Part shown: one piece after another, positions 35,458 to 58,522 of the stretch
Layout: each line of letters opens with the position of its first letter
Position numbering within the stretch: position 1 is the stretch's first letter
Source of the DNA: Streptomyces mobaraensis NBRC 13819 = DSM 40847
GTDB taxonomy: Bacteria; Actinomycetota; Actinomycetes; Streptomycetales; Streptomycetaceae
Direction: 5' to 3'
DNA: 64,000 nucleotides
Assembly (NCBI RefSeq): GCF_017916255.1
Contig: NZ_CP072827.1
Coordinates: 868,001-932,000 of the forward strand
Notes under the pieces: model-generated
Databases searched by the model: none
The model's input: only the letters and a program-made list of their open reading frames with translations
Told to the model about the DNA's origin: nothing
Program-made: the position numbers and the translations under genes

Positions 35458-35885
35458 TCGGTCAGGACGTGCTGTCCGGCCGCCATGCTCGCCTCCCAGT
35501 TCCGCCCGTCGAACTCCACGAATTCGATGTGCTCGGCGGCCTCCAGGTCCAGGCAGCGCGCGTTGACGCTGAAGTACCCGGTGGGGTGCGAGCGGGGGCG
35601 GTAGAAGGGCATGATGCCGCACACGGCGCAGAACGTGTGGTCCGCGACGCGGTTGCCGAACCGGTAGGGCTTGAGGAACTCCTGCCCGCGGTGCAGCTCG
35701 AACCGCTCCTCCGGGACCATGAGTTCCTGGTGCCCGGACTTGTAGCAGATGCCGCAGTTGCACAGGGTGATGGTGAGGTTGCGGCTGGCGGCGGCGGAGA
35801 ACGCCACGCCGCCGCAGTGGCAGGAGCCCTCGTACCAGACACGTTCGATCTCCGCCTCGGGCGTGGCGTCGCGGTCAGCCGGCAC
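35454..35885 (-). CDS. GFA-family zinc protein (CENP-V/GFA fold)
   Basis: A 143-residue protein with the cysteine pattern of the glutathione-dependent formaldehyde-activating (GFA) family: CHCGG, CNCGIC and CAVCG, which bind two zinc ions. Most members have no proven reaction; some act on thiol adducts. It is the middle gene of a coupled operon, overlapping the dioxygenase upstream by 11 bp and the MalY-type enzyme downstream by 4 bp. A sulphur-related role would fit the PLP lyases in this cluster but is inferred from context only. Confidence 0.87.
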   Translation of the reverse strand: MPADRDATPEAEIERVWYEGSCHCGGVAFSAAASRNLTITLCNCGICYKSGHQELMVPEERFELHRGQEFLKPYRFGNRVADHTFCAVCGIMPFYRPRSHPTGYFSVNARCLDLEAAEHIEFVEFDGRNWEASMAAGQHVLTE

Positions 35886-36831: not shown

Positions 36832-36992
36832 TCGACCTCCATGGTGATGGGTCGGACGAGGGCAGGCCGTCACCATGGCCGCGGCCCCGCATTTCCGCGG
36901 TCAACGTAGGGAGGGCGGGAATGCCGTGTCAAGTGCCCGGAATTTCCGCGCGGTTATCGGGAAGGCCGGGTGAACGACACCGGCGGAGCGCG

Positions 36993-37091: not shown

Positions 37092-37099
37092 GGGTGCTC

Positions 37100-38416
37100 G
37101 TGGCGAAAGAGAGCCGTACGGCGATCGGCTTCGAAGAGGGCCGCAACGACGGCGCCAAGTGGTTCGGCGACCTCACCCGCTCGCGGTTCGCGGGGCCCGT
37201 CACCCCGCACCACCGGGTGCTGTCCCGCGAGGTCTCGCCGGAGACGCTCGCCGTGCACGCGGGGACGTACGAGGACCCGGTGACGGGCGCGGTGGGCACC
37301 CCGGTCTTCCAGACCAGCACCTTCCTGCTGGACGACGCCAGTTACGCGGCCTTCTCCGACGGGACCTCCCGCGACGTCCCGATCTACACCCGGTACGGCA
37401 ACCCCTCGCAGTGGTCCGTGCAGGAGAAGATCGCCGCGCTGGAGGGCAGCCGCAGCGCGCTGGTGACGTCCTCCGGGATGAGCGCCACCGCCAGCACGAT
37501 CTACGCCCTGACCAACGCGGGCAGCCACATCGTCTCGGCCTACGACGTCTACGGCGGCACCTACAACCTGCTGCGCGAGGACATGCCGTCGGCCGGCCGC
37601 GAGGTGACGTTCGTCGACCCCTGCGACCTGGACGCGGTGCGCGCGGCGATCCGCCCCGAGACCCAGCTGCTGTTCTTCGAGACGCTGACCAACCCGCTGC
37701 TGAAGGCGCCGTCGGTACGCGGCCTGGCGAAGATCGCGAAGGAGGCCAACGCCCTTCTCGTGGTGGACAACACCTTCCTCACCCCGGTCAACATGCGCCC
37801 CCTGGAGCTCGGCGCGGACGTCGTCGTGCACAGCGCCACCAAGTACCTCGCCGGGCACAGCGACCTGACCGCCGGCGCGGTCGTCGGCCGGCGGAAGTTC
37901 CTGGACCGGATCTGGGCACAGGCCCTGCGCTTCGGCGGCACCCTCGAACCGCTCTCCGCCTTCCTCCTGGAACGCGGAATGAAGACCCTTCCGCTGCGCG
38001 TCCGCGCGCAGAATGCCAACGCGGCGGAAGTGGCGCGTTTCCTGGCCGGGCACGAACGCATCGCGGCCGTTCACCATCCGGAACTCGGCGGCCCCCGCTA
38101 TGCCGGTCTGGAACGCGCGGACTACGGCGGATTCGGCGGCATGGTGAGTTTCGAGGTGCGCGGCGGCGACGAAGCCGCCCTGGAATTCATGAAGAAACTC
38201 CGGATTCCCTATGTGGCGACGAGTCTGGGCGGCGTGGAATCCCTGGTGAGCATGCCGAGCAATACCTCGCACAGTTCGCTCACCGCCCGCCAGCGGTCCC
38301 GGATCGGCATCAATCCCGGCCTGGTCCGGTTCTCGGTCGGCATCGAGAACGTCCGCGATCTGGTCCGGGACCTGGACGAGGCGCTCGGCGCTCCGGCAGA
38401 GGAGGACAAGCGATGA
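37100..38416 (+). CDS. Cystathionine gamma-lyase/gamma-synthase-family PLP enzyme
   Basis: A 438-residue Cys/Met-metabolism PLP enzyme. It has YTRYGNPS (phosphate-binding Tyr and Arg of the partner subunit), SSGMSAT, DNTF and the Schiff-base lysine in HSATKYLAGHSD, and ends with SLGGVESL and GLVRFSVGIE. Members catalyse gamma- or beta-elimination or replacement on amino acids such as cystathionine or O-acyl-homoserine. First gene of the large rightward operon, directly behind the SARP box. GTG 37094 and GTG 37100 are both possible starts; AGGGG lies just before. It could supply sulphide or make a gamma-substituted amino acid for the NRPS. Being followed by an OsmC protein suggests sulphur or peroxide chemistry, but this is inference. 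Confidence 0.9.
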   Translation: MAKESRTAIGFEEGRNDGAKWFGDLTRSRFAGPVTPHHRVLSREVSPETLAVHAGTYEDPVTGAVGTPVFQTSTFLLDDASYAAFSDGTSRDVPIYTRYGNPSQWSVQEKIAALEGSRSALVTSSGMSATASTIYALTNAGSHIVSAYDVYGGTYNLLREDMPSAGREVTFVDPCDLDAVRAAIRPETQLLFFETLTNPLLKAPSVRGLAKIAKEANALLVVDNTFLTPVNMRPLELGADVVVHSATKYLAGHSDLTAGAVVGRRKFLDRIWAQALRFGGTLEPLSAFLLERGMKTLPLRVRAQNANAAEVARFLAGHERIAAVHHPELGGPRYAGLERADYGGFGGMVSFEVRGGDEAALEFMKKLRIPYVATSLGGVESLVSMPSNTSHSSLTARQRSRIGINPGLVRFSVGIENVRDLVRDLDEALGAPAEEDKR

Positions 38417-39405
38417 GGAACAGCTTCAACACGGCCGGCTTCAGCGAAGTGGTCCACGAGATCCGCAACGACCCCGCCGAGGCGGCGTTCCTCTACACGG
38501 CGGAGGCGCAGTCCTCGCCGTACCGGGGGCTGTCGGCGAGGATCGGTCCGGCGCTGTTCGGCACGGTGAAGTCCGCGCGGCGCTTCTCGGTGGAGCTCCG
38601 GGACGTCTCCGACGCGCCCGGCGCCGACGGCCCGCTGCCCATGCACCTGGCCCTCACCGGCATCGCCTCCTGCGCGCTGACCACGCTGGTCGGCGGCGGC
38701 AGCGCCCAGTCGGTGGTCTTCGAGAGCGCCGACATGGACATCGCCTGGGACGGCGGCGCGGTGGCGAGCCGGATCGACGTGGGCGGGGTGCCGGACGACG
38801 CGACGGTCGCCGAACTCGTCGACCAGGTCGAGCGGTTCAGCCCCAACTACACCACGCTGATCCGGCCGGTCCCGGTCGCCCTGCGCCACGGGCCGGGCGC
38901 CGCCCCCGCGAGCGCCGGTACGGCGGAGGGCGCGCCGGCCGCCGGGCGTCCGGCCGCCTGCCAGGTCCGCTGGATCAGCGGCACCCAGCTCACATCCGCC
39001 CCACTGGGCCCGGAGCCGGGCGAGGAGCTGCGGGTGGACGCGCCCAAGCAGCTCACCGGCGTCGACTGGGGTCCGAACCCGCAGGAGTACCTGCTGATGG
39101 GCCTCGCCGCCGACGTGGCCTCGCACCTGGGCCGGCTCGCCCGCGAACTGACCGGCCGGGCCGTGACCTGGCGGGTCGCCGTCCGGGGCACGGAGGACGT
39201 CGGGGGGCTGCTCCAGGCGGACCCGTCGGCCGTCGTCCAGCTCCAGGACATGGAGTGCGCGGTGGCGGAGCCCGCGGGGCTCTCCGGTACGGAGCTGGAG
39301 AAGGTCGTGGTGGCCGCCTGGGCCGCGTCGGAGGTGCGGTACCTGATCGAGGCGGCCCCGGCCGTCCGGCTGACCTCGCACCGGGTGGAGTCGTGTCCGG
39401 TATGA
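38413..39405 (+). CDS. Tandem OsmC-like protein
   Basis: A 330-residue protein that looks like two fused OsmC/Ohr-fold domains (about 1-165 and 175-330). The first keeps a cysteine in the helix position (GIASCALTTL). In the second that motif reads MGLAADVASHL, with Ala where the reactive Cys is expected. A late C-terminal Cys occurs in VESCPV. OsmC/Ohr proteins reduce organic hydroperoxides with a cysteine pair, usually as homodimers of about 140 residues. A fused, half-degenerate form inside a biosynthetic operon may have a new function. It overlaps the PLP gene upstream (ATGA) and the monooxygenase downstream, so all three are translationally coupled. Confidence 0.75.
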   Translation: MRNSFNTAGFSEVVHEIRNDPAEAAFLYTAEAQSSPYRGLSARIGPALFGTVKSARRFSVELRDVSDAPGADGPLPMHLALTGIASCALTTLVGGGSAQSVVFESADMDIAWDGGAVASRIDVGGVPDDATVAELVDQVERFSPNYTTLIRPVPVALRHGPGAAPASAGTAEGAPAAGRPAACQVRWISGTQLTSAPLGPEPGEELRVDAPKQLTGVDWGPNPQEYLLMGLAADVASHLGRLARELTGRAVTWRVAVRGTEDVGGLLQADPSAVVQLQDMECAVAEPAGLSGTELEKVVVAAWAASEVRYLIEAAPAVRLTSHRVESCPV

Positions 39406-40688
39406 ACCGAGACGGCGCCCTCCGCGTCCTCGCCGTCGGCGCGGGACCGGCCAACCTGAGCCTGGCCGCGCTGGCCGAGCCGGTCGACGGCCTCCGCGTC
39501 ACCGCCCTGGAGGCCCGCGACTCCGTCGCCTGGCACCCCGGCCTGCTCTGGACCGACTCCCGGCTCCAGGTGAGCGCGGTGAAGGACCTGGTCACCCTCG
39601 TCGATCCGCGCAGCCGCTTCGGCTTCCTGAACTTCCTGCACGAGCGGGGCCGGCTGTACCGGCACCTGATCGCCGCCGCGGACCACGTCAGCCGCAAGGA
39701 GTTCGACCAGTACTTCACGTGGGCCGCCCAGCAGTTGGACGTCCGGCTCGGCGAGCGCGTCGAGGCGGTGGAGCACGACGGCGACGGGTTCGCCGTCCGC
39801 ACCGGCCGGCGCGTCCACCGGGCGGACCACGTGGTGCTCGGCGTCGGCCGGACCCCGTACGTCCCCGACTGCGCCCGCGGCGTCACCGGCCGCCGCCTGT
39901 GGCACGCCGCCGACCACCTCGGCCGGGACGACCGGCTGGACGGCCGGGACGTGCTGCTGGTCGGCGGCGGGCAGAGCGCGGCCGAGGTGGCGCTCGACCT
40001 GATGTCCGGCCGGGCCGGGCTGCCGCGCCGGCTGACCTGGGTCACCGGGCGCGAGGGCTTCGCCCCGCTGGACGACTCGCCGTTCGCCGACGAGTGGTTC
40101 AACCCCCGCTACGTCGAGTACTTCCGGGAGCTCCCGGCCGGCCGGCGCGCCGCCCTGCTGGAGCGGCAGCGGTCCGCCGGCACCGGGATCACCCGCGAGC
40201 TGCTGGCCCGGGTGTACGAGCGGCTGTACGCGCTCGACTACCTGACGGACGGCCCGTTCACCCACGACCTGCTGGCCGGGGTGCGGCTGACCGGGCTCGC
40301 GGACGCCGACGGCGGGTTCCGCGCCGAGCTGGAGGACACCGTCACCGGCGGCCGGCGCGCCCTGTCCTGTGACACGGTCGTACTTGCGACCGGCTACCAC
40401 ACCGAACTCCCGTCCTGCATGGAGCCGTTGCACGACCGGATGCCCGTCGCCGACGGCGGCTACGCGGTGGAGGCCGACTACCGGGTGCGCTGGGACGGCC
40501 CCGACCGGCACCGGATCTACGTCCAGGGCGCGGCACGCCACACTCATGGCGTCGCCGACCCCAACCTCTCGTTGGCGGCCTGGCGTTCGGCCGTGATCCT
40601 CAACAGCCTGCTGGGCCGGGAGCACTACGACCTCAAGGCGGACGAGTCGGCCCTCGGCCCCAAGGACCGCGTGGGGGCCCGCCCGTGA
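39402..40688 (+). CDS. FAD/NADPH lysine/ornithine N-hydroxylase family monooxygenase
   Basis: A 428-residue class B flavin monooxygenase of the IucD/PvdA/SidA family. It has the FAD site GAGPANLSLAAL (about 11-22), the NADPH site GGGQSAAEVALD (about 187-198) and the C-terminal ATGY motif (VVLATGYHTELP). These enzymes hydroxylate the side-chain amine of lysine or ornithine, usually for hydroxamates and, in some pathways, for N-N bonds. Coupled start at ATG 39402 overlapping the OsmC stop. The first NRPS adenylation code carries two acidic residues, consistent with a basic amino acid, so the product may be loaded there. No hydroxamate acyltransferase or piperazate-synthase-like gene was seen. 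Confidence 0.9.
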   Translation: MNRDGALRVLAVGAGPANLSLAALAEPVDGLRVTALEARDSVAWHPGLLWTDSRLQVSAVKDLVTLVDPRSRFGFLNFLHERGRLYRHLIAAADHVSRKEFDQYFTWAAQQLDVRLGERVEAVEHDGDGFAVRTGRRVHRADHVVLGVGRTPYVPDCARGVTGRRLWHAADHLGRDDRLDGRDVLLVGGGQSAAEVALDLMSGRAGLPRRLTWVTGREGFAPLDDSPFADEWFNPRYVEYFRELPAGRRAALLERQRSAGTGITRELLARVYERLYALDYLTDGPFTHDLLAGVRLTGLADADGGFRAELEDTVTGGRRALSCDTVVLATGYHTELPSCMEPLHDRMPVADGGYAVEADYRVRWDGPDRHRIYVQGAARHTHGVADPNLSLAAWRSAVILNSLLGREHYDLKADESALGPKDRVGARP

Positions 40689-41935
40689 CCGCCGAGACCC
40701 GCCCGCGCCTCTACCGCGAGGTGTTCGCCGTCCCGGGCATGACCCGCTCGGTGCTGCTGATGTTCGTCGCCCGGCTGCCGGTCACGGCGATGGGGCTGAC
40801 CCTGACCCTGCACGTGGTCAACGGCCTGCACCGGGGCTACGTGGCCGCCGGTCTCGTCGCGACCTCGACGACGGTCGGCACCATGGTCGGCGCCCCGGCG
40901 GTCGGCCGGGCCCTGGACCGGCACGGCCTGCGGCCGGTGGTCGCGGTCTGCGCCACGGTGGCCACCGCGTACTGGATCGGCGTCCCCTGGCTGCCGTACG
41001 AGGCCCTGCTGGTCGCCGCGTTCCCGGCGGGCGCGCTGGTGATCCCGGTGAGTTCGCTCTCCCGGCAGGTGATCACGGCCCTGGTGCCGGAGGACCGGCG
41101 GCGCACGGCGTTCTCGGTGGACGCCGTCGCGATGGAGACGTCCTTCATCGTCGGCCCGGCCGTCGGCATCTACCTGGCGACCCAGTTCTCCAGCCGGCTC
41201 GCCCTGACGGTGATCGGCGCGGTCGTCGCGGTGACGGCGGTGCTGCTGTACGCGCAGAATCCGCCGCTGCGTGGCAAGAAGGAGGCCGCGGCCCCCGCCC
41301 CGGGCGGCCCGCGGACCTGGCTCGACGGGCGGATGACGGCCACACTGCTGATCTCCATGGGCGTGCTGTTCGTGCTCGGCGGGACGGAACTGGCCCTGGT
41401 GGCCGTGCTCCGGGCCGGCGGCGAGACCGCGTGGACCGGGGTGGCGGTCGCCATCCTCGCCCTGGGGTCGATCGTCGGCGGCGTCGTCCACGGCGCCCTC
41501 CCGCGCTCGCTGCCGCAGTCCGCGCTGATGGCGCTGCTGTCGCTGCTGGTGATCCCGGCCGGCCTGGTCTCCGGGCCGTGGTGGCTGCTCGGACTGGCGC
41601 TGGTGCCCATGCAGTTGGTGTGCGCGCCGACGCTGGCGGCCATCGCCGAGAGCGTCAGCCGGCTCGCGCCGCCGCACGCCCGCGGCATGGCCATGGGCCT
41701 CCAGGACTCGGCGACCCGGCTCGGCGGCGCCCTCAGCTCCCCGGCGATCGGCTTCGTCATGGACCGCACGTCGCCCGGCTGGGGCTTCGCCGCCTCCGGC
41801 GCCGGCGGGCTGCTGCTCGTGGCCGCCGCCGGGGTGTGCGCGGGCGGCGCCCGGCTCCGCACCCGCCGACCCGCGGCCGACCGGCCGCCCACAGACCTCC
41901 CCACCACTGAACCCTCCATCGGAATGGACAGGTGA
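40685..41935 (+). CDS. MFS transporter (probable product exporter)
   Basis: A 416-residue integral membrane protein with about 12 hydrophobic segments and the loop sequence GRALDRHGLRPVV typical of major facilitator antiporters. It overlaps the monooxygenase gene (GTGA, 40685) and the methyltransferase gene, so it is made with the pathway. Efflux of the peptide product and self-protection is the likely role. It resembles sugar-efflux and drug-efflux transporters; the substrate cannot be read from sequence. Confidence 0.88.
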   Translation: MTAETRPRLYREVFAVPGMTRSVLLMFVARLPVTAMGLTLTLHVVNGLHRGYVAAGLVATSTTVGTMVGAPAVGRALDRHGLRPVVAVCATVATAYWIGVPWLPYEALLVAAFPAGALVIPVSSLSRQVITALVPEDRRRTAFSVDAVAMETSFIVGPAVGIYLATQFSSRLALTVIGAVVAVTAVLLYAQNPPLRGKKEAAAPAPGGPRTWLDGRMTATLLISMGVLFVLGGTELALVAVLRAGGETAWTGVAVAILALGSIVGGVVHGALPRSLPQSALMALLSLLVIPAGLVSGPWWLLGLALVPMQLVCAPTLAAIAESVSRLAPPHARGMAMGLQDSATRLGGALSSPAIGFVMDRTSPGWGFAASGAGGLLLVAAAGVCAGGARLRTRRPAADRPPTDLPTTEPSIGMDR

Positions 41936-42951
41936 CGACAATGACGACGACGGACACGGACGCCGCGTCCTGGGCGGCCTCCGCCCGCATCTACAACTCT
42001 GCCGTCGCCGCGTGGGCGATCGGCGCGGCCTGGGAGGTGGGCGCGCTCGACGAGCTCCAGGAGCGGGGCGCCCTGGACACGGCCGAGTTCGCCGCCCGCC
42101 ACGACCTCGACCCGGCGTCCACGCTCGGCATGTTCCGGGCGCTCGCCTCGGTCGGCGTCGTCCGCCGGGACGGCACCCGGGTGGTGCCGGCGGAGGACTT
42201 CGCCGAGATCCAGCGCACCCGCTCCCTCTTCCACTGGCTGGTGCGCGGCAGCGGCGAGCTGTTCCGCCAGATGCCGTCGGTGCTGCGCAACGAGAACCGC
42301 GTCGGCACCTTCTACCAGCGCGACCCCGTCGCCATCGCCCGTTCCTGCAAGGAGATCAGCGTCTTCTGCTACGACCCGTGGTTCTGGCGGGCGATGGAGG
42401 GGCTGGACTTCGACGTCCGGGTGGCGGCCGACCTGGGCTGCGGCAGCGGCGAGCGGCTGATGCAGATCCTGCGCCGGCACCCCGACGCCCGCGGCCTGGG
42501 CGTGGACATCGCGGGTGACTCGCTGAAGGTGGCGGCGGCCGACGCGGCGGACGCCGGTCTCGCCGGCCGGCTGTCCTTCGTCGAGGCGGACATGCTGACC
42601 ATGGACCCGCGCCCGGAGTTCACCGAGGTGGACCTGCTGACCTGCTTCATGGCCGGGCACGACTTCTGGCCGCGCGAGCAGTGCGTGGCGACCCTCGCCC
42701 GGCTGCGCGAACTCTTCCCCAACGCCCGCCGGTTCCTGCTCGGCGACGCCACCCGCTCGGTGGGCGTGCCCGACGCGGAGATGCCGGTGTTCATGCTCGG
42801 CTTCGAGGTCGCCCACGACCTGATGGGCACCTTCATGCCCACCATGGCCGACTGGGAGGGCGTCTTCGCGGAGAGCGGCTGGCGGCTGCGGCACAAGCAC
42901 GACATCGGCATGGTCGCCAACGAGGTCATCTTCGAACTCGAACCCCGGTGA
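41932..42951 (+). CDS. SAM-dependent C-methyltransferase (LmbW-like or 2-oxo-acid methyltransferase-like)
   Basis: A 339-residue two-domain methyltransferase with an N-terminal winged-helix dimerisation region (about 20-90) and a Rossmann domain with the SAM motif ADLGCGSGERLM (about 165), Asp in GVDIAGD and EADMLTMDP. Two readings fit. As an LmbW-type enzyme it would add a carbon to the side chain of the 4-alkylproline precursor. As a relative of the 2-oxo-acid C3-methyltransferases (MppJ, MrsA), it would beta-methylate a 2-oxo acid later transaminated, perhaps by the MalY-type protein. It lies directly upstream of the NRPS in the same operon. GTG 41932 overlaps the MFS stop; ATG 41941 is an alternative start. 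Confidence 0.85.
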   Translation: MTTMTTTDTDAASWAASARIYNSAVAAWAIGAAWEVGALDELQERGALDTAEFAARHDLDPASTLGMFRALASVGVVRRDGTRVVPAEDFAEIQRTRSLFHWLVRGSGELFRQMPSVLRNENRVGTFYQRDPVAIARSCKEISVFCYDPWFWRAMEGLDFDVRVAADLGCGSGERLMQILRRHPDARGLGVDIAGDSLKVAAADAADAGLAGRLSFVEADMLTMDPRPEFTEVDLLTCFMAGHDFWPREQCVATLARLRELFPNARRFLLGDATRSVGVPDAEMPVFMLGFEVAHDLMGTFMPTMADWEGVFAESGWRLRHKHDIGMVANEVIFELEPR

Positions 42952-43011
42952 CGGCCGGGGCGACCACGGCATGACGGGACGACGGCCGGCGGGCCACAGG
43001 GGTGAACAGGC

Positions 43012-46000
43012 GTGAAGCGAGGGCCGATGACGGCGAAGAGGGAACGGGCGACGGGCGGCGGGGTGCGTGACGTTCCCTTCGTCCACGAGGTGTTCGAGGA
43101 GCGGGCCCGCCGGCACCCGGACGAGCGGGCCGTGGTCTGCGGCACCGACGCGCTCGGCCGGGCGGAGCTCGACGCCCGGGCCAACCGGTTGGCCCGCCAT
43201 CTGATCGCCCGGGGCGTGGGGCCGGAGACGCGGGTGGCCGTGGTGCTGCCCCGCTCGGCGGACGCGCTGGTGGCGCTGTTCGCGGTACTCAAGGCCGGTG
43301 GCACCTACGTCCCGGTGGACCCCGCGCAGCCGGCCGGCCGGATCGCGGCCGTGGTCCGCGCGGCGGACTGCGCGGTGGTGCTGGACGGTCCGGTGGACCT
43401 CGACGGCTTGCCGGACACCCCCGTCACCGATGCCGACCGCCTGGCACCCCTGGACCCCGCCCACGCCGCGTACGTCGTCCACACCTCGGGCTCGACCGGC
43501 ACGCCCAAGGGCGTCGTCGTCGAACACCGCGCCCTGGCCGCCCTGTTGCACCACCACGTCGCCCCGCAGTACACGGAGGTGGCGGCCGGCGACCGGCTGC
43601 GGGTCGCCCTCGTCTCCCCGCTCGCCTTCGACGCGTCCTGGGACCCGGTGCTGGCCATGGTGGCCGGCCACGAGCTGCACCTGCTGGACGACGACACCCG
43701 CCGCGACCCGGCCGCGCTCACCGCGTACGTGACCCGGCACGGCGTCGACGTCGTCGACCTCACCCCGTCCCACCTGGAACAGCTGCTGCCGCACGGCCTG
43801 GTCCGCGACCCGGCGGCCCGGCCCCGGCTCGTCGTCCTGGGCGGCGAGGCGCTGCCCGAACCGCTGTGGCGCGAGCTGCGCGACACCCCCGGCGTCACCG
43901 CGCACAACCTGTACGGCCCCACCGAGTGCGTGGTGGACGCGCTGTGGGCGGCGTCCGACGCGGCGGAGGACGTGGTCATCGGCCGGCCGGTCGCGCACGG
44001 CGCCGCGTACGTCCTGGACGCCCGGCTGCGGCCGGTGGAGGACGGCGAGACCGGCGAACTGTACGTGGCCGGGGCCGGATTGGCGCGCGGCTACCTGGGC
44101 CGGCCCGGGGCGACGGCGGCCCGGTTCGTGGCCGACCCGTTCGCGCCCGGCCGCATGTACCGCACGGGCGACCTCGTGCGGCGGGGCCCCGACGGCCTGG
44201 TGCGCTACGTGGGCCGGGCCGACGACCAGGTGAAGGTACGGGGCTTCCGGATCGAGCCGGGCGAGGTGGAGGCCGTCCTCCGAGAGCATCCGGCGGTGGC
44301 GGCGGCGGCCGTCCGCGCCCACCGGTTCGGGGAGGGCGACCGGCGGCTGGTGGCGTACGTCGTGCCGGTCGGCGAGCTCGACCCGTCCGACGTACGGCGG
44401 TTCGCGTCGGACCGGCTGCCGGAGCACCTCGTCCCGGCCTCGGTCACCCCGCTGGCCGCGCTGCCGCTGACCCCCAACGGCAAGCTCGACCGCGCGGCGC
44501 TCCCCGCCCCGGGGCCTCTGGTGGCCACGGGCGGCCGGGAGGCGCGTACGGACGCCGAGCGGGTGCTGTGCGCGCACTTCGCGGCGGTGCTGGGCCTGGA
44601 GCGGGTGGCGGCCGACGCCTCGTTCTTCGAGCTGGGCGGCGACTCGCTGCTGGCGATGCGGCTGGTCGGCCGGATCGGCGCCGCCCTCGGCGCGCGCCCG
44701 TCGGTCCGGGACGTCTTCGACGCCCCGACCCCGGCCGGGCTCGCCGCGCGGCTCGCGGACGCCCCGGAGCGGCCCGGCCCCCCGCTGACGGCCGGCCCCC
44801 GCCCGGAGCCCGTCCCGCTGTCGTCCGCGCAGCGGCGGCTGTGGTTCCTCGACCGCCTGGAGGGGCCCAGCCCGACGTACAACGTGCCGCTGGTCTCCCG
44901 GCTGTCCGGCCCGCTGGACGCAGGCGCCCTGCGGGCGGCGCTGCGGGACGTGGTGGCGCGCCACGAGAGCCTGCGGACGGTCTTCCCGGAGCGGGACGGG
45001 CAGCCGGTCCAGCGGATCCTGCCCCTCGACGAGGCGGTCCCGGCCCTGGAGACCGCCCGGGTGGACGCCGCCGTCCTGGACGCGCGGCTGGAGGAGGACT
45101 CCGGGCGGACGTTCGACCTCTCCCGCGACCTTCCGGTGCGGGCGTGGCTGTACGAACTCGGGTCGGATGAACATGTGTTGCTGCTGCTGGTGCACCACAT
45201 CGCCACGGACGGCTGGTCGCTGGACCCGCTCGTCCGCGACCTGGGCGAGGCGTACGCCGCCCGCGTCCGGGGCGAGGCGCCGCGCCGGGCCCCGCTGCCC
45301 GTCCAGTACGCCGACTACACGCTCTGGCAGCGCGGCCTGCTGGGCGACCCCGCCGATCCCGACAGCCCGGCCGCCCGCCAGCAGGCGTTCTGGACCGAGG
45401 CGTTGGCGGGCATACCCGACGAGCTGGGCCTGCCCTTCGACCGGCCGCGCCCGGCCGTCGCCTCCTACCGGGGCGGGACGGTCGACTTCCACCTGGACGC
45501 GGAGGTGCACGGGCGGCTCACCGAGCTGGCGCGGCGGCGCGGCGTGACGACGTTCATGGTGTTCCAGGCGGGCCTGGCCCTGCTGCTGGCCAAGCTCAGC
45601 GGCGGCACGGACATCCCCGTGGGCACGCCCGTCGCCGGCCGCTCCGACGAGGCCCTCGACGACCTGGTCGGCTTCTTCGTCAACACCCTCGTCCTCCGCA
45701 CCGACCTCGGCGGCGACCCCACCTTCGACGAGTTGCTGACCCGCGTCCGCGACACCGACCTCGCCGCCCTCGCCCACCAGGACATCCCCTTCGAGCAGGT
45801 CGTGGAGGCGGTCAACCCGGTGCGCTCGCTCGCCCGCAACCCGCTGTTCCAGGTGTCGCTGACGATGAACGAGCCGGACACCGCGCTGTCCCTGCCGGGG
45901 CTCGCGGTGACCGGGCGGCGGCCGGTGCTGGGCGTGGCCCGGTTCGACCTGAACGTCAACTTCCATGAGCGGGACGGCGGCGCGGGGGTCGCCGGGCAGA

Positions 46001-51804: not shown

Positions 51805-52274
51805 CGACACCCACCGTGCCCACGGCACACCTGCACCACGTCGGGGTCCAGACCTTCGACCTGGACAACTCCCTCGCCTGGTACCGGGACTTCCTCGGCT
51901 GCCGGCCGACCTGGACCGCCGAGACCTTCTCCGAGCTGACGCTCAGCCGGCTGCCGGGGGTCTCCCGGATCACCGAGATCGTCGCCGGGGCCGTCCGGCT
52001 GCACCTGATCGAGCGGACCACCCGGGTGCGCGAGCGCGGGCCCGAGGACCGCGTCCAGTTCCAGCACGTCTGCCTCGCCGTGGACACGCCGGAGGAGCTG
52101 GTCCGCCGCCGGGAGCTGTGGCAGGAGCTGTACGCGTCCGGGCGGTACGACTTCCTGCTGCCCGACCCGCCGTCCGGGATCGTCACCGACGCCGAGGGCG
52201 TCCGGAGCTTCTACTGCCTCGACGTCAACGGCCTGGAGATCGAGTTCACCTACGTCCCGGGAAGCACCCGATGA
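51801..52274 (+). CDS. L-DOPA 2,3-dioxygenase-like vicinal oxygen chelate protein (LmbB1 type)
   Basis: A 157-residue glyoxalase/bleomycin-resistance-fold protein. The iron ligands expected for the family are visible as HHVGVQT near the start, FQHVCLAV in the middle and an acidic residue in NGLEIEFTY near the end. Its setting beside the tyrosine hydroxylase, F420 reductase and GGT homolog matches LmbB1/HrmF/TomH-type enzymes. These cleave DOPA next to the catechol, so the product cyclises to a dihydropyrrole, the precursor of 4-alkylproline units. The GTG start overlaps the NRPS stop. A plain glyoxalase would be the alternative, but context argues against it. Confidence 0.82.
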
Positions 52275-53245
52275 GCCGCAACGCGACCGCGGTCGCCCTC
52301 TCCCTGCCCGGCGCGCGGGGCTGGGACTTCGGCGACTACCCCTACGCCCTCGAACCGCTGACCCTGCCGCACCCCGGCGACCCGTGGCCGCTCGCCCCGG
52401 CGGCGGGACCCGAACTCCGCGAGGCGTGCCGTGAGTTGCTCGCAGCCGCCGACGAGGGAGCGCTGTGCACCGAGCCGGTGACGGAGGAGGGCCTGGAACG
52501 CCTCTTCTGGTTCCGCTGGATCACCGGGCACCACATCTCGTTCGTCCTCTGGCGGCTCGTCGCCGCCGCCCTCGACCGGCTCGGCGCGGGCGAGGAGGAG
52601 GACCTGGCGACGGCCCGGGAGATCCACCACCACGTCCGGGCGTACAGCGCCATGATGCTGTACACCGGATCCAGCACCCCCGAGATCTACAACGCGGTCA
52701 TCCGGCCGAGCATGTACCGGCTGCACAGCACGTTCAGCGGCACCTGGGCGGCCGACTTCCCGGCCGTGCGCAGCCTGTTCCGCGGCCGGAAGGTGCCGCC
52801 GGTGCCGGCGGGCGAGGCCGACGCCCTGGTGCGGGAGGTGGCCCTGGGCCACCGGATCCACCTCGGGACCGCCGCCAAGCTGGTCGCCGACGGCCGGTCG
52901 CTGCTCCAGCACCTGGTCGACAACCCGCCCGAGCGGCAGCCCCGGATGTGGACGAGCGTCTTCGACTGCTACTTCCTCACCCTGCGCGCCCCGGTCGCCG
53001 GCCAGGAGGTGCTGGCCCAACTGCTGCGCCGCTGCAAGGCGGTGGCGATGGACCTGACGACGAACGGCCTCTACCCGTCCGTCGCCCACTACCCGGGGCC
53101 CGCCCCCGACGAGCTGTGCACGCCGGACGTCCTGGCCTGCGAGAACGAGCTCACCGACATCGTGCTCCGCACGGCCGCGCTGGCCACCGCCACCAGCGCC
53201 GAGCCCACGGGCACCGGACCGACGAGCCCCCGAAGGAACGGCTGA
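52271..53245 (+). CDS. Heme-dependent L-tyrosine 3-hydroxylase-like protein (LmbB2 type)
   Basis: A 324-residue protein resembling the histidine-ligated heme tyrosine hydroxylases (LmbB2, HrmE, TomI, Orf13 type) that use peroxide to convert tyrosine to DOPA. It has no P450, flavin or non-heme-iron motif. Characteristic stretches are TGHHISFVLWRL, an Arg/Met/His cluster in IRPSMYRLH, FSGTWAADF, and a C-terminal CENELTDIVLR. The heme ligand cannot be assigned with certainty by eye. It starts at ATG 52271 overlapping the dioxygenase stop, so the two first steps of the alkylproline route are made together. Assignment rests on sequence feel plus a strongly matching neighbourhood. Confidence 0.8.
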   Translation: MSRNATAVALSLPGARGWDFGDYPYALEPLTLPHPGDPWPLAPAAGPELREACRELLAAADEGALCTEPVTEEGLERLFWFRWITGHHISFVLWRLVAAALDRLGAGEEEDLATAREIHHHVRAYSAMMLYTGSSTPEIYNAVIRPSMYRLHSTFSGTWAADFPAVRSLFRGRKVPPVPAGEADALVREVALGHRIHLGTAAKLVADGRSLLQHLVDNPPERQPRMWTSVFDCYFLTLRAPVAGQEVLAQLLRRCKAVAMDLTTNGLYPSVAHYPGPAPDELCTPDVLACENELTDIVLRTAALATATSAEPTGTGPTSPRRNG

Positions 53246-53249
53246 GAAC

Positions 53250-54155
53250 ATGGCTGAGACGATGCGACACGGAATCATCATCCTGCCCGAGCAGCGCTGG
53301 CAGCAGGCCCGGGACCGCTGGGTGACGGCGGAGCGGCTGGGCTTCGACCACGCCTGGACCTACGACCACCTGATGTGGCGCTGGTTCCGCGAGAAGCCGT
53401 GGTTCGCGACCATGCCCACGCTGACGGCCGCCGCCACGGCGACGTCCCGGATCGGCATCGGCACCATGGTGGCCAGCCCCGGCATCCGCCACCCCGTCGC
53501 CTTCGCCAAGGAGATCATGACGCTGGACGACATCTCCGGCGGCCGGGCGATCTGCGGGGTCGGCGCGGGGGCGGGCGGGTTCGACGACGAGGCCCTCGGG
53601 CTGCGTCGGCTCAACCCGCGCGAACGGGCGGACCGCTTCGCCGAGTTCGTCGACCTCACCGACCAGCTGCTCCGCGAGCCGGAGACCACCTACCGGGGGG
53701 ACTGGTTCACCACGACCGGCGCCCGGCTGCACCCCGGCTGCGTCCAGCGCCCGCGCGCGCCCCTCGCCGTGGCCGCCACCGGACCGCGGGGCATCCGGCT
53801 GGCCGCCTGCCACGCCGACATCTGGGTCACCATCGCCTGGCCCGGCCACGGCGAGCCGGTCCGCTACGACGAGGCGCTGCCCGTGCTGCGCGAGCAGTCG
53901 GCGCTGCTGGACAAGGAGTGCGAGGCGATCGGCCGCGACCCGGCCGCCGTCCGCCGGCTGGTGGTCACCGGCGCGATGATCGACGGCGTGCTGGAGTCCG
54001 TCGAGACGTACCGCGACGCGTGCGGCCTCCTCGGCGGCATCGGGATCACCGACCTCGTCGTGCACTGGCCGCGCCCCGACTTCCCGTACCAGGGCGACTT
54101 CTCCGTGCTGGAGGACGTCGCGAACGAGGTCCTGCTGCCCGGCCGCGCCGCCTGA
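53250..54155 (+). CDS. F420-dependent LLM-class reductase (LmbY type)
   Basis: A 301-residue luciferase-like monooxygenase-fold protein (LLM class, F420 type). It shows TAAATATSRIGIGTMV, a PVAFAKEIMTLDDISGGR stretch, GVGAG and a C-terminal LLGGIGITDLVVHWP. LmbY/HrmD/TomJ-like members use reduced F420 to reduce the ring imine or side-chain double bond as the last alkylproline step. It follows the tyrosine hydroxylase by 4 bp and precedes the GGT homolog, the usual company. Length and fold fit. The degree of side-chain reduction in the product cannot be predicted. Confidence 0.85.
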   Translation: MAETMRHGIIILPEQRWQQARDRWVTAERLGFDHAWTYDHLMWRWFREKPWFATMPTLTAAATATSRIGIGTMVASPGIRHPVAFAKEIMTLDDISGGRAICGVGAGAGGFDDEALGLRRLNPRERADRFAEFVDLTDQLLREPETTYRGDWFTTTGARLHPGCVQRPRAPLAVAATGPRGIRLAACHADIWVTIAWPGHGEPVRYDEALPVLREQSALLDKECEAIGRDPAAVRRLVVTGAMIDGVLESVETYRDACGLLGGIGITDLVVHWPRPDFPYQGDFSVLEDVANEVLLPGRAA

Positions 54156-54206
54156 CCGGCCGCCCCCGCCCTCCCTTCCCTCCCGTCCCGAAAGGGTTCT
54201 CCTCCT

Positions 54207-56006
54207 GTGCTGTTCCGTCCCGAGCTCCACGGCACGCAGGGCGCCGTCTCCTCCACCCACTGGCTGGCGTCCGCCGCCGGGCACGCGATGTTCGACCGCG
54301 GCGGCAACGCCTTCGACGCCGCGGTGGCCGCCGCGTTCGTGATCCAGGTCGTCGAGCCCCACCTCAACGGCCCGGCCGGCGACGTACCGATCATGGTGCA
54401 CGACGGCGCGACCGGCGAGGTGACGGTCGTCTGCGGGCAGGGGCCGATGCCCGAGGCCGCCACCGTCGACGCCGTCCGCGCCCTCGGCCTGGACGCCATC
54501 CCCGGCTCCGGCCTCGTCGCGGCCTGCGTCCCCGGCGCCTTCGGCGCGTGGATGCGCGTCCTGCGCGACCACGGCCGGCTGCGGGTCGCCGACGTCCTCG
54601 AACCGGCCATCGGCTACGCCGAGCACGGCTATCCGCTGCTGCCCCGCGCCGCCCTGATGATCGAGGCGCTGGCGCCGCTGTTCCGCGACCACTGGACCGC
54701 GTCCGGGGCCGCCTACCTCCAGGACGGCAAGGTTCCGAAGGCCGGCTCCCGGATGCGCAACCCGGACCTGGCCCGCACCTACCGCCGGCTCGTCGCCGAG
54801 GCCGAGGCCGCCGGGTCCGGCCGCGAGGCCCAGGCGGACGGCGCCGTCAAGGCGTTCTACGAGGGGTTCGTCGCCGAGGCGATCGACGCGTTCGTCACCA
54901 CCACCGAGGTGATCGACTCCACCGGCGTCCCGCACAAGGGCCTGCTCACCGGCGCGGACCTGGCCCGCTGGCGGCCGGGCGTCGAGCGGGCCGCCACCCT
55001 GGACTACCGGGGCATGCTGGTACACAAGCCCGGCCCCTGGTCCCAGGGCCCGGTCTTCCTCCAGCAGCTCTCCCTGCTGGCCGGCTACGACCTGGGCGCG
55101 ATGGGCTTCGGCAGCGCCGACCACCTCCACACCGTCATCGAGTCCGCCAAGCTGGCGTTCGCCGACCGCGAGGCGTGGTACGGCGACCCGGAGCACGCGG
55201 ACGTCCCCCTCGCCGCGCTCCTCGACCCCGCCTACGCCGACGCCCGCCGGGCGCTCATCGGCCCCGAGGCGTCGGCCGTCCTCCGGCCCGGCTCCCCCGA
55301 CGGCCGCGAGCCCTGGATCCCGCCCGTCCTCGACGCCACGGACGGCCCGGTCGAGCCCGAGTGGCGGGCCGAACTCCACAACGGCATCCCTACCGTCGTC
55401 CGCAAGACCGCCGGCAAGGGCGACACCACCTGCGTCAGCGCCACCGACAAGGACGGCAACATGGTGGTCGCCACCCCGAGCGGCGGCTGGCTGAAGAGCT
55501 CGCCCGTGGTGCCGGGGCTGGGCTTCCCGCTCGGCACGCGCGGGCAGATGGCCTGGCTCGCCGAGGGCCACATCAACCAACTGGCGCCCGGCAAGCGGCC
55601 GCGCACCACGCTCAGCCCCACCATCGTCCGCACCGACGACGGCCGTCCGCACCTCGCCTTCGGCACGCCCGGGGGCGACCAGCAGGACCAGTGGACGCTC
55701 AACTTCTTCGTCAACCACGTGGACTTCGGCATGTCGCCGCAGGAGGCCGTCGAGGCGGCCACCTTCCACACCGAGCACGTGCCCACGTCGTTCCACCCCC
55801 GCCAGGCGCGCCCGCTCGGCGTGGTCGTCGAGGAGGGCGGGTTCCCGGAGGCGACCCTCGCCGAACTCGGGCGCCGGGGGCACGAGATCAGGACCGCGCC
55901 CGCGCTGAGCCTGGGCAAGGTCTGCGCCACCGGCCCCGACGGCGACGGCGGCGTGCTCGCCGCCGCCAGCCCGCGCGGCGGCCAGGCGTACGGCGTGGTG
56001 CGGTGA
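54207..56006 (+). CDS. Gamma-glutamyltransferase-fold C-C hydrolase (LmbA type)
   Basis: A 599-residue Ntn-hydrolase of the gamma-glutamyltranspeptidase family. The self-cleavage and nucleophile site is GDTTCVSATDKDGN, with Thr407 as the predicted new N-terminus of the small subunit. The usual TTH is TTC here. No signal peptide is evident, so unlike ordinary GGT it is cytosolic. In alkylproline pathways the homolog (LmbA, TomL) removes the two-carbon oxalyl-type fragment after DOPA ring opening. Gene order dioxygenase, hydroxylase, F420 reductase, GGT supports that function over glutathione metabolism. GTG 54207 is the start. A 51-bp gap precedes it, the largest spacing in this part of the operon. 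Confidence 0.85.
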   Translation: MLFRPELHGTQGAVSSTHWLASAAGHAMFDRGGNAFDAAVAAAFVIQVVEPHLNGPAGDVPIMVHDGATGEVTVVCGQGPMPEAATVDAVRALGLDAIPGSGLVAACVPGAFGAWMRVLRDHGRLRVADVLEPAIGYAEHGYPLLPRAALMIEALAPLFRDHWTASGAAYLQDGKVPKAGSRMRNPDLARTYRRLVAEAEAAGSGREAQADGAVKAFYEGFVAEAIDAFVTTTEVIDSTGVPHKGLLTGADLARWRPGVERAATLDYRGMLVHKPGPWSQGPVFLQQLSLLAGYDLGAMGFGSADHLHTVIESAKLAFADREAWYGDPEHADVPLAALLDPAYADARRALIGPEASAVLRPGSPDGREPWIPPVLDATDGPVEPEWRAELHNGIPTVVRKTAGKGDTTCVSATDKDGNMVVATPSGGWLKSSPVVPGLGFPLGTRGQMAWLAEGHINQLAPGKRPRTTLSPTIVRTDDGRPHLAFGTPGGDQQDQWTLNFFVNHVDFGMSPQEAVEAATFHTEHVPTSFHPRQARPLGVVVEEGGFPEATLAELGRRGHEIRTAPALSLGKVCATGPDGDGGVLAAASPRGGQAYGVVR

Positions 56007-56040
56007 CCGGATGACCACCCGACACTCAGGAGGACCGGCC

Positions 56041-57321
56041 GTGCCGAGGATCGTGCTGCTCAACGTCGGGACCGCGGCCCCGCGCGCCGTCCACCGCCAG
56101 CTGTGGCTGCTCCGCGAGGGCGACGTCGTGGTGAGCCCGTTCGTGCCGGACGAGGACTTCGTCCGCTACGTCTGCGGCGAGACCGGCGTGGACCGGACGG
56201 CGATACGCTTCGTGTCCGCCGGGGAGAACCTGGCGGACGAGGCCCTGACCGCGCCCGCGCTGATCCGCGAGGTCCGCGCGCTGCTCGCCGGTCACGACGC
56301 CTGGGAGCTGCTGCCCGCCCACCACACCGAGGGCGTCGCCGCCTTCGCGGGCCTCTGCGGCCTGCCGGCCGAGGCCGGGCTGCGGTTCGCGGCCCAGCGC
56401 GGCCCGGTGCTGCTCAACCGCAAGTCGCACTTCCGGCAGCTCGCCGTGGGCGCGGACGTCCCGGTGCCGGACGGCACCGTCGTCACCGGGCCCGCCGCCC
56501 TGGCCGCCGCCGTCGAGCGGTACCTGCCGCGCACCGGCACGGTGGTGGTGAAGCGGGACGACGACCTGGGCGGCCAGGGGAACGTGGCCCTCACCCTCAA
56601 GGAGACCGGGCCCCTCCCCGGCACCCGCGCGACCCTCGCCGCCGACGCGCCCGAGGCCGCCGCTGACGCCCTGTGGGCGGAACTGACGGACCCCCGGAAC
56701 CCCGTCCTGGCCGTCGAGTCGTACCACCGGTCCACGCACAGCTTCTACGCCGAGTACCTGATCGGCCCGGCCGGGGACGTCACGTTCCTCGACAGCGGGA
56801 CGATCCGCCGGCGCCCCGACACCGACCCGACGGCGCCGGAACTCGTCTGGGTGGGCCTGGAGTTGCCCGCCGAGCTGCCGGCGGGCGCCGGTGCCCGGGC
56901 GCTGACCGCGTCGGCCCGGATGGTCGCGCTCGCGGCGGCGATCGGCTACCGCGGGCACATCAACGTCGACGGCATCGTCACCGACACCGGCGAGGTCCTC
57001 TTCAACGAGGCCAACGCCCGGTGGGGCGGCAGCCTCGCCCTGCACGCCGCCGGAGAACGGCTGCTGGGACCGGCCTACCTGGACACGCACGTGCTGTCCG
57101 GACTGCGGGACGTCCCCGCGCTGCCGCTGCCGGCCGCGCTGGACACGCTGCGCCGGCACGGGCTCGCGTTCTCGCCGGGGACCGGGGAGGGAGCGGTCGT
57201 CCTGGGCTACGACCCGTCCGGGGAGCGGCCGTTGGAGTGCCTGGTCCTCGCCCCCACGCGGGAGCGGGCGCGCGCCGTCGAGGCGGCGGTCCGCGTCGCG
57301 GTCGGGGAGGCACGGCCGTGA
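56041..57321 (+). CDS. ATP-grasp peptide/amide ligase (PGM1-like)
   Basis: A 426-residue ATP-grasp protein. An N-terminal pre-ATP-grasp domain (IVLLNVGTAAPRAVHRQLWL, VSPFVPDEDFVRYVC) precedes the nucleotide-binding half (VVVKRDDDLGGQGN) and the metal/ATP motif FNEANARWGGS. Such enzymes activate a carboxylate as acyl phosphate and join it to an amine, as in the pheganomycin peptide ligase. GTG 56041 is preferred because AGGAGG (56028-56033) is 7 nt upstream; ATG 56011 is ten codons earlier without such a site. In this operon it could cap, extend or conjugate the NRPS tripeptide, possibly to the polyketide acid. That link is inference. Confidence 0.85.
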   Translation: MPRIVLLNVGTAAPRAVHRQLWLLREGDVVVSPFVPDEDFVRYVCGETGVDRTAIRFVSAGENLADEALTAPALIREVRALLAGHDAWELLPAHHTEGVAAFAGLCGLPAEAGLRFAAQRGPVLLNRKSHFRQLAVGADVPVPDGTVVTGPAALAAAVERYLPRTGTVVVKRDDDLGGQGNVALTLKETGPLPGTRATLAADAPEAAADALWAELTDPRNPVLAVESYHRSTHSFYAEYLIGPAGDVTFLDSGTIRRRPDTDPTAPELVWVGLELPAELPAGAGARALTASARMVALAAAIGYRGHINVDGIVTDTGEVLFNEANARWGGSLALHAAGERLLGPAYLDTHVLSGLRDVPALPLPAALDTLRRHGLAFSPGTGEGAVVLGYDPSGERPLECLVLAPTRERARAVEAAVRVAVGEARP

Positions 57322-58271
57322 GCGACGCACAGGGCGTACGGCAGGAGACCGGCGACCGCCCGTACCGCCAGGGACTCGACAAGGCCCTGCTGATGAGCCT
57401 GGCCCGGTCGGACCGGCGGCGGGTCGCCGCGCGCACGGCGGTGCTCGCCGTCGTCTACGCCGCGACGGCGACCGTGGCGCTCCGGCCGGGCGTCGGCTGG
57501 TGGGGCCTGCTGGGCTCCGCGTTCCTCGGCTTCGTCCTCGCCGGCTTCATCAACGCCGCGCACGACTGCGTGCACGGCACCCACCTGGGATCCAGGAGGG
57601 CCAACCGGATCGCGGGCGCGGCCTGGTCCACGCCGATCCTCCTCAACTACACCATCTACCGCCACCAGCACCTCGTCCACCACCGCTACACCGGGGTGGA
57701 GGGCGACAGCGAGCCCGCGGAGCACTACGCGACGCTGCGCGCCTACCTCTACAACCTGTCCGGGCTGCCGTTCTGGCCGGGCTTCCCGCGCCGGATCGTG
57801 AAGACCTGGCGCGGCGACTTCCCGGCGAGCGTCCGGACGGACGACCGCCGGCGCGACGCGAAGCGGGACAACTGGGCGATCTTCGCCTGGCTCGTGGCGA
57901 TGGCCGTCCTCACGGTCCTCTTCCCGTTCGCGCTGCTGATCGCCTACTGGGTGCCGCTGGCGCTCTCGCTGCCCGCGAGCGTCTTCCTCAGCCTGCCCGA
58001 GCACTACGGGCTGTGGGGCGTGCCGGAGGTGTCGCGCAACACCCGGACGGTCCGGTCCAACGGCTTCGTCCGCTACTTCATGTGGAACGCCAACTACCAT
58101 GCGGAGCACCACCATTACCCGGCGGTCTCCTCGCTCAACCTGCACCGGCTGCACCGGTCCATGCCCGTTCCGCACCCGATCCAGGAGAAGTCCTACCTCC
58201 GCTTCCACGCGGGCCTGGTGGGGGCTCTGCGCAAGGGGAGGCAGGACTACGGGCGGACGGCACGCGGCTGA
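57318..58271 (+). CDS. Membrane fatty-acid desaturase/hydroxylase family protein
   Basis: A 317-residue integral membrane di-iron enzyme with the three histidine boxes HDCVH (near 83), HQHLVHH (near 117) and HAEHHH (near 264), and hydrophobic segments between them. It could desaturate or hydroxylate an acyl chain, or a carrier-bound or amino-acid substrate. The GTG start overlaps the ligase stop, so it belongs to the operon. Neither an acyl carrier protein nor a ferredoxin gene accompanies it. In natural product clusters such proteins often act on side chains of peptides, but the substrate here is unknown. Confidence 0.87.
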   Translation: MSDAQGVRQETGDRPYRQGLDKALLMSLARSDRRRVAARTAVLAVVYAATATVALRPGVGWWGLLGSAFLGFVLAGFINAAHDCVHGTHLGSRRANRIAGAAWSTPILLNYTIYRHQHLVHHRYTGVEGDSEPAEHYATLRAYLYNLSGLPFWPGFPRRIVKTWRGDFPASVRTDDRRRDAKRDNWAIFAWLVAMAVLTVLFPFALLIAYWVPLALSLPASVFLSLPEHYGLWGVPEVSRNTRTVRSNGFVRYFMWNANYHAEHHHYPAVSSLNLHRLHRSMPVPHPIQEKSYLRFHAGLVGALRKGRQDYGRTARG

Positions 58272-58309
58272 GCTTCCGCACCCTCTCCACGACGACCAGG
58301 AGGTCACCG

Positions 58310-58522
58310 ATGAGCAACCCGTTCGAGGACGAGAGCGGGACGTACCGCGTCCTCGTCAACGACGAGAACCAGCACTCCCTCTGGCCGGACTTCGCCGAGG
58401 TGCCCGCCGGGTGGGCCGTGGCGCACGGCCCGGCCCCCCACGGCGAGTGCGTCGACTACGTCGAGCGCCACTGGACGGACATGCGGCCGGCGTCGCTGTC
58501 CCGGCGGGCGTCCGCCGCGTGA
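58310..58522 (+). CDS. MbtH-like NRPS partner protein
   Basis: A 70-residue protein with the family signature: NPFEDE, NDENQHSLWP, PAGWAV and the C-terminal YVERHWTDMRP. MbtH proteins bind adenylation domains and aid their folding and activity, so its partner is the three-module NRPS upstream. A strong AGGAGGT precedes ATG 58310. It is the last gene of the operon; its final 67 bp overlap the convergent SARP gene. Confidence 0.96.
   Translation: MSNPFEDESGTYRVLVNDENQHSLWPDFAEVPAGWAVAHGPAPHGECVDYVERHWTDMRPASLSRRASAA

Follow-up and report, generated by a model that had tools for sequence, protein, structure and literature searches.

A conserved gene cluster of Streptomyces mobaraensis that joins alkylproline-type genes to an MppJ-type methyltransferase

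A 64,000-nucleotide stretch of DNA from Streptomyces mobaraensis NBRC 13819 = DSM 40847, hereafter the window, was analyzed for a putative peptide biosynthetic gene cluster (BGC) containing alkylproline-type genes; it covers positions 868001-932000 of a 7.57-Mb contig (NZ_CP072827.1), and all feature coordinates count from the start of the window. Thirteen forward-strand genes form an operon at 37094-58522, in which neighboring genes overlap or lie ≤60 bp apart and encode, in order, a pyridoxal-phosphate (PLP) enzyme, a double-domain OsmC protein, an N-hydroxylase, an MFS exporter, a methyltransferase (MT), a nonribosomal peptide synthetase (NRPS), a DOPA dioxygenase, a tyrosine hydroxylase, an F420 reductase, a GGT-fold hydrolase, an ATP-grasp ligase, a desaturase-fold enzyme, and an MbtH-like protein. 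A divergent operon on the reverse strand (33823-36876) carries genes for a 2-oxoglutarate (2OG) oxygenase, a GFA-type protein, and, as its third gene, a PatB-like PLP enzyme. A preliminary description of the sequence had proposed a single coupled operon with a gamma-lyase-type PLP enzyme, double OsmC protein, N-hydroxylase, ATP-grasp ligase, and desaturase as partners of alkylproline genes; the coupling was borne out, as were these partners by Pfam and PDB matches, and the gene list was correct as far as it went, but the MT, the exporter, the MbtH-like protein, and the whole divergent operon had been missed. Because the overlooked MT is MppJ-type and not LmbW-type, the predicted product changes. 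The gene set recurs in five other genomes, which is more than chance would produce and indicates a real BGC family; the possibility that these are chance open reading frames (ORFs) in high-GC DNA was rejected on this conservation in six genomes. Within the overall explanation that we lean towards, 33823-58522 would be one peptide BGC made of the two divergent operons.

The four consecutive genes at 51801-56006, all on the forward strand, had been likened to alkylproline (APD) genes, and PDB and Pfam matches placed the expected enzymes there. The L-DOPA 2,3-dioxygenase of the LmbB1 type (B1; 51801-52274) matched PDB entry 6on1 (E = 1e-50), and its ligand-type residues H13, H68, H89, E146, and E148 were kept, in columns that were >97% conserved in a 66-row alignment. 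The heme L-tyrosine 3-hydroxylase of the LmbB2 type (B2; 52271-53245) matched 7kqr/8r2s (E = 7e-68, with a query that started one codon upstream, at 52268) and shared 98% identity with an S. mobaraensis protein, and PF27188 was found in 120 of 120 hydroxylase homologs, among the matches listed. The LmbY-type F420-dependent reductase (Y; 53250-54155), a luciferase-like protein (PF00296) scoring 132.6 bits against TIGR03619 (cut-off 166.9), was 75-80% identical in four relatives and 95% in S. huiliensis, and its relatives were also present at many B2 loci. The LmbA-type GGT-fold C-C hydrolase (A; 54207-56006) matched 6j3a, whose molecule name is gamma-glutamyltranspeptidase (E = 3e-165); Thr407, the start of the small chain in solved GGTs, was kept in >97% of 49 aligned rows, including the window. 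LmbB2-, LmbB1-, and LmbY-type enzymes and a GGT-fold hydrolase with an N-terminal nucleophile, four homologies expected of an APD pathway, were thus all found, and the APD core itself is known in kind. Phylogenetic grouping within the APD families, suggested beforehand as a check, was seen for the hydroxylase, which fell among APD-locus hydroxylases in the tree; comparison of the remaining three proteins was limited to identity.

To sample related loci, one genome per species was scanned with an alignment of 45 hydroxylases, yielding 68 loci (L-numbers denote loci and G-numbers genomes); the loci were found by two short peptide patterns and have flanks of ≤10 kb, such that absence from a flank is not absence from a genome. 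The B2 tree contained 68 rows, the window plus 67 loci, L073 having dropped out. The double-OsmC protein was sought in the genomes of 18 of the 68 loci and was matched at E = 5.4e-95 or better in five, namely S. huiliensis, S. catenulae, Micromonospora qiuiae, S. sp. S465, and S. antibioticus; G014 gave one further, weak match (E = 9e-4), whose neighborhood was not read. In the 20-40 kb around OsmC in those four Streptomyces and one Micromonospora, nearly the same gene set was present at ∼51-98% protein identity, with the S. huiliensis cluster split over two contigs (the remainder being L006) and the reductase and hydrolase genes of S. antibioticus lying upstream of the PLP gene. An even draw of 295 genomes of the genus from a larger group, with the window's own included, contained six that gave a match at E ≤ 1e-10. 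The six window-type rows of the hydroxylase tree formed a clade (100/98) within an 11-row clade (100/99), all 11 members of which carry an MppJ-type MT. The cluster family is therefore real and conserved; it is also apparently undescribed, since no description of this gene combination was found by title and abstract in the open-licence PubMed Central literature, among the matches listed, in agreement with the preliminary description, which knew of no such pathway. In a sister group (L010 and L012-L015), an MppJ-type MT occurs together with an LmbX-like gene, and the NRPS is a different one that has two A domains in the parts read; this group is a possible source of 3-methyl-4-ethylideneproline peptides.

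The NRPS (43012-51804, +; 2930 aa) has the order A-T-C-A-T-C-A-T-TE (three A, two C, three PCP, and one TE domain by Pfam), with an A domain first and the A domains spaced ∼1035 residues apart, in keeping with the self-starting, three-module enzyme with a TE anticipated earlier. Specificity codes, read by alignment to a GrsA fragment, were DAWDVGLVD for module 1, DVMTGGCM(A) for module 2, and DLTKVGAVN for module 3. The module 2 A domain was 71-85% identical in S. catenulae, M. qiuiae, S. sp. S465, and S. antibioticus (S. huiliensis was not covered); outside the family its highest identity, 54-56%, was to a single A domain in each of L010, L013, L014, and L015, and its code starts with DVM, as at 13 LmbX-bearing loci (DVMY(A/T)VMLA) that we label as probably of the pyrrolobenzodiazepine (PBD) type. 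Module 2 is thus the likely alkylproline-loading domain. Judged by comparison codes, module 1 presumably takes a polar or basic residue, and module 3 presumably an Asp/Asn-like residue in the window, S. huiliensis, and S. catenulae and a Gly-like residue in the other three. Module 1 differs within the family, looking degenerate by eye in M. qiuiae and lying beyond the called ORF in S. sp. S465, which stops short of it; three family members carry further NRPS modules.

The gene immediately upstream of the NRPS (41932-42951, +) encodes an MppJ-type C-methyltransferase, a putative tyrosine/hydroxyphenylpyruvate beta-methyltransferase (PDB 4kib, MppJ, E = 8e-126). In a 26-row alignment it was 58% identical to MppJ vs. 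22% to the MT of L036, and both His residues at MppJ positions 243 and 295, which we take to be iron ligands, were kept. The L036 MT was labeled LmbW-type because the A-domain code at that locus, DVAIVAIGC, resembles the published LmbC code, VALVAIGC. Genetic evidence shows that beta-methylphenylalanine compounds require JomM, which shares 55% identity with MppJ (PMC6117699); the window MT differs from MppJ and JomM in being tied to an L-DOPA ring-cleavage pathway. Three sister clusters, those of M. qiuiae, S. sp. S465, and S. antibioticus, contain both an MppJ-type and an LmbW-type MT (the latter 70-78% identical to that of L036), which argues against one role for both; the regions of the window, S. 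huiliensis, and S. catenulae yielded an MppJ-type MT and no LmbW-type. When the LmbW-type query was run against the window's genome, the best match was the window MT itself, at 27%, and the others were partial (30-40% over ∼60-150 residues).

The MppJ-type MT was found at 15 of the 68 B2 loci, in two separate B2 clades; with the window, the 16 MT-bearing rows gave three label changes on the tree against a shuffled mean of 14.5, and 0 of 500 shuffles were as low. The second clade comprises L045, L049, L050, L062, and L072, together with L071, which lacks the MT, and in all five MT-positive loci an MppJ-like MT (40-42% identical to that of the window) directly follows B2. No B1, Y, or A match was found at L045 or L050 within the ∼10 kb searched on each side. 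Relatives of a class-IV aminotransferase, an assignment confirmed by Pfam for L045, L049, and L072, were present at eight of the 68 loci, seven of them MT-positive and two of them window-type (M. qiuiae and S. sp. S465); the eighth, L071, sits inside the second B2 clade. The MT and aminotransferase loci are related, so these counts are not independent. Because beta-methylation via a keto acid needs transamination, the co-occurrence counts for this route, and the MT and aminotransferase evidence together favors, short of proof, methylation of a tyrosine-derived keto acid, which would lead to a 3-methylproline. At L045 (9974-13633, S. diacarni) and L050 (10153-13630, S. reniochalinae), a tyrosine hydroxylase, an MppJ-like MT, and a class-IV aminotransferase lie together, with a PLP decarboxylase nearby in L045; this set is possibly a beta-methyl-DOPA-type pathway.

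LmbX-like genes, for which the two query proteins belong to the PhzF family by Pfam, were present in the flanks of 30 of the 68 loci, lying between the reductase and hydrolase genes in L012 and L016; the window and the fetched cluster regions of the five relatives yielded none. PhzF matches occurred in five of the six family genomes, with none in S. sp. S465. Those in the window's own genome, all outside the window, reached at most 37% identity to an LmbX-like protein in long alignments, and 40% in one of 82 residues, and on this low identity supply of LmbX in trans was rejected, M. qiuiae excepted. Two reports state that the hormaomycin cluster has no LmbX homolog, that the side chain formed by a delta-lmbX lincomycin producer is unsaturated, of the same kind as the alkenyl chain of hormaomycin, and that without isomerization the unisomerized intermediate is ring-reduced and incorporated (PMC4780272, PMC6085390). 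The absence of LmbX, from which the preliminary description had argued that the side-chain chemistry may differ, thus held, but it is precedented and not novel in itself, and an alkenyl-type side chain is its expected consequence.

The hormaomycin set (HrmC-G) resembles that of the window in its tyrosine hydroxylase, DOPA dioxygenase, GGT-fold hydrolase, F420 reductase, lack of LmbX, and modular NRPS loading; it differs in its MT, which is LmbW/HrmC-type and not MppJ-type, and the joint occurrence of a missing X gene and an LmbW/HrmC-type MT was not found in the window. The hormaomycin NRPS and partner genes presumably also differ from those described here. With lincomycin and PBD pathways the window shares the four core enzymes, and with the latter, probably, the DVM start of the module 2 code; it differs from lincomycin- and anthramycin-type clusters in having neither LmbX nor LmbW. 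The apparently new parts are the MppJ-type methylation and a cassette of partner genes.

The first two cassette genes in the main operon encode a Cys/Met-metabolism PLP enzyme of the gamma-lyase/gamma-synthase type (37094-38416, +; PF01053, E = 1e-122; 82-96% identical in relatives) and the double-domain OsmC-fold protein (38413-39405, +; PF02566 in two stretches). The nearest solved relatives of the PLP enzyme are methionine gamma-lyases (E = 1e-95); a methionine gamma-lyase proper was rejected because the position that we take to hold the Cys of that enzyme reads Gly (motif YGGT). In the OsmC protein, only Cys87 was invariant in an 11-row alignment, the second domain had no invariant Cys, and other Cys residues were not conserved; the usual partner-Cys position reads SPN, with an invariant Ser. 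An AlphaFold model (pLDDT 82) had the OsmC-like 2opl as its best fold match, and an ordinary peroxide reductase (OsmC/Ohr thiol peroxidase) was rejected because the second redox Cys is missing. The OsmC gene directly follows the PLP gene in 11 of the 11 genomes whose neighborhoods were read. The pair are neighbors in G144, G260, G273, and G033, with a C-A-T-TE type NRPS nearby in three of these, the domain order and heterocyclization type of which were judged by eye. A B12-binding radical-SAM protein lies near the pair and its NRPS in G144 (L096), and a PALP-family PLP enzyme lies near the pair in G260.

The flavin N-hydroxylase (39393-40688, +; PF13434, E = 1e-89) is nearest to lysine/diamine hydroxylases, matching 6xbb (E = 1e-68), 5o8p, a lysine 6-monooxygenase of the desferrioxamine pathway (E = 2e-63), and 7us3 (putrescine; E = 9e-54). 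Downstream of the APD genes, a PGM1-family ATP-grasp peptide ligase (56011-57321, +) shares the PreAtp-grasp and PGM1_C domains of PGM1 (3wvq, E = 4e-35), differing in that it sits with an NRPS and is nearer to 8ynd (E = 1.5e-70); PGM1 is the peptide ligase of the pheganomycin pathway. It is followed by the desaturase-fold enzyme (57318-58271, +; PF00487, E = 2e-35), whose closest named NCBIfam family is GntB, an arginine gamma-hydroxylase (39 bits, far below the cut-off of 380). In the divergent operon, the 2OG-Fe oxygenase (35875-36876, -; PF10014, HxD motif VHSDG; 57-92% identical in five relatives and 59% in G096), which we take to be probably an amino-acid hydroxylase, precedes the GFA-type protein (35454-35885, -; PF04828; 80-93% in five relatives and 71% in G096) and a PLP enzyme resembling PatB-type C-S lyases (33823-35457, -; Pfam Aminotran_1_2). 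The frame and ATG of the last were checked, and tblastn found it in six of six family members and in G096; it scored 305.8 bits against NCBIfam TIGR04350 (cut-off 340) and 127 bits against GntC (cut-off 415).

Genome G096 contains relatives of the 2OG oxygenase, GFA protein, PatB-like enzyme, gamma-lyase-type PLP enzyme, OsmC protein, N-hydroxylase, and ATP-grasp ligase (37-71% identical, the ligase at 37%); the genes called over the 20 kb read included no APD enzyme match, the reductase and hydrolase were also absent by tblastn, and there was no desaturase match. The partners presented at first as new are thus unusual but not an ad hoc mix, most of them forming a cassette also where no APD gene was seen. 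From gene content, these seven genes are probably a separable unit that makes a second unusual residue. The gamma-lyase type, C-S-lyase type, GFA, and OsmC proteins together suggest sulfur chemistry, and the N-hydroxylase suggests an N-O group; sulfur and N-O chemistry in the second residue are suggested only weakly.

We consider it slightly more probable than not, on these grounds, that tyrosine is beta-methylated by the MppJ-type MT and becomes a 3-methyl-4-alkenyl/alkylidene-proline loaded by module 2, and that the cassette makes a second unusual residue. By homology, the heme enzyme would 3-hydroxylate L-tyrosine, the DOPA dioxygenase would open the catechol ring, with the product reclosing to a pyrroline, the GGT-fold hydrolase would take off a two-carbon oxalyl unit, and the F420 reductase would reduce the ring. 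Before hydroxylation, the MT may act on hydroxyphenylpyruvate, the alpha-keto form of tyrosine, and a transaminase may then return beta-methyltyrosine, the methyl group of which would end on proline ring carbon 3. As neither an LmbW-type MT nor an LmbX isomerase was found, the side chain would be a two-carbon, unsaturated one, and the predicted unit would be a 3-methyl-4-(two-carbon, unsaturated)-L-proline, 4-vinyl or 4-ethylidene; sister clusters with an LmbW-type MT would make a three-carbon version. The 4-ethylidene-3-methylproline of lucentamycin would presumably be this unit or an isomer of it. Module 2 would load the APD unit; the residue taken by module 1 would be polar or basic, that of module 3 would be Asp/Asn, or Gly in sister clusters, and the TE would release the peptide; the cassette would make and attach the second residue, perhaps through sulfur and N-O chemistry.

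Several points weigh against this proposal. No metabolite is known for the cluster. Identity between module 2 and the DVMY-type A domains was 42-48%, no higher than to several unrelated A domains (up to 50%), so only the code links the two. No class-IV aminotransferase was found in the fetched regions of the window, S. catenulae, S. antibioticus, and S. huiliensis, and a transaminase encoded elsewhere must be assumed there. An LmbX-like PhzF gene is present in M. qiuiae (L104 8947-9786; 45-47%), on another contig and with no APD match within ∼9-10 kb. The sulfur part rests only on enzyme classes, and the PatB-like protein scores below its curated cut-off. Finally, MppJ and LmbW alike act beside an alpha-keto acid, and an MppJ-type enzyme could thus in principle methylate the DOPA-dioxygenase product.

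This last point underlies a hormaomycin-like alternative, in which the MppJ-type MT replaces LmbW/HrmC and methylates the dioxygenase product, giving 4-(Z)-propenyl-L-proline without a ring methyl. The missing LmbX fits the hormaomycin and delta-lmbX chemistry described in the sources cited above, and a search of the window and its genome found no gene of the LmbW type; however, three sister clusters keep both MT types, and MppJ-like MTs accompany B2 at loci with no B1 found in the vicinity and also accompany an aminotransferase, and we therefore regard this alternative as unlikely. For the cassette, a different second block could be arginine-derived, with a GntB-like gamma-hydroxylase (the desaturase-fold enzyme) and a GntC-like cyclodehydratase (the PatB-like enzyme) supplying module 1 with a cyclic guanidine amino acid. 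GntB and GntC are respectively the best and second-best NCBIfam hits of these proteins, and beyond its first Asp the module 1 code contains two further acidic residues, as is common in codes for basic residues; both scores are nevertheless far below their cut-offs (39/380 and 127/415 bits), the PLP enzyme reaches a far higher score, 306 bits, as a PatB-type C-S lyase, and G096 has a relative of it but gave no desaturase match, which makes an arginine origin quite improbable. Least credible of all is a beta-methyl-phenylalanine or other beta-methyl amino acid incorporated as such beside a plain 4-vinyl/ethylidene-proline, as made by MppJ and JomM in their own pathways, because no window A-domain code looks aromatic, and because L006-L015 have different NRPSs and share with the MT the tyrosine-to-APD gene set.

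Other genes lie within and around the cluster. The MFS exporter (40685-41935, +; PF07690) had a tblastn match in four of five relatives, with none in the M. qiuiae cluster region, and the MbtH-like protein (58310-58522, +; PF03621 within an overlapping ORF) begins at an ATG with AGGAGG upstream. A SARP-type regulator (Trans_reg_C and BTAD) fused to a LysR substrate-binding domain (32677-34251, +) is also present beside the cluster in S. huiliensis (88%) and S. catenulae (58%). Its gene and the PatB-like ORF overlap tail to tail by ∼430 bp (33823-34251), and one end may be misjudged; the true 3' end of the PatB-like gene may lie near 34280. A second SARP, with an NB-ARC/AAA region (58459-60402, -), has relatives near the clusters of S. 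catenulae, S. antibioticus, and S. sp. S465. Further upstream are a protein joining TerD and CAP (cysteine-rich secretory) domains (30404-31744, +) and three very long ORFs of modular-synthase size (2067, 3497, and 2807 aa; 2109-27381, -); in S. huiliensis and S. catenulae, the few kb read upstream yielded no comparable ORF call.

Tentatively, the cluster may represent a new APD branch in which tyrosine is beta-methylated first, with two independent methylations in some sisters, and in which the OsmC protein is perhaps a sulfur carrier partnering the PLP enzyme that makes a second new amino acid. As alkylprolines are central to lincomycin and pyrrolobenzodiazepines, a route to ring-methylated unsaturated prolines would widen this useful building-block chemistry. 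Because natural variants exist, some clusters having LmbW and others not, and related clusters carrying LmbX, the sequence and function of the methylations can be tested directly, and the adjacency of OsmC and PLP genes in otherwise different clusters points to an uncharacterized enzyme partnership.

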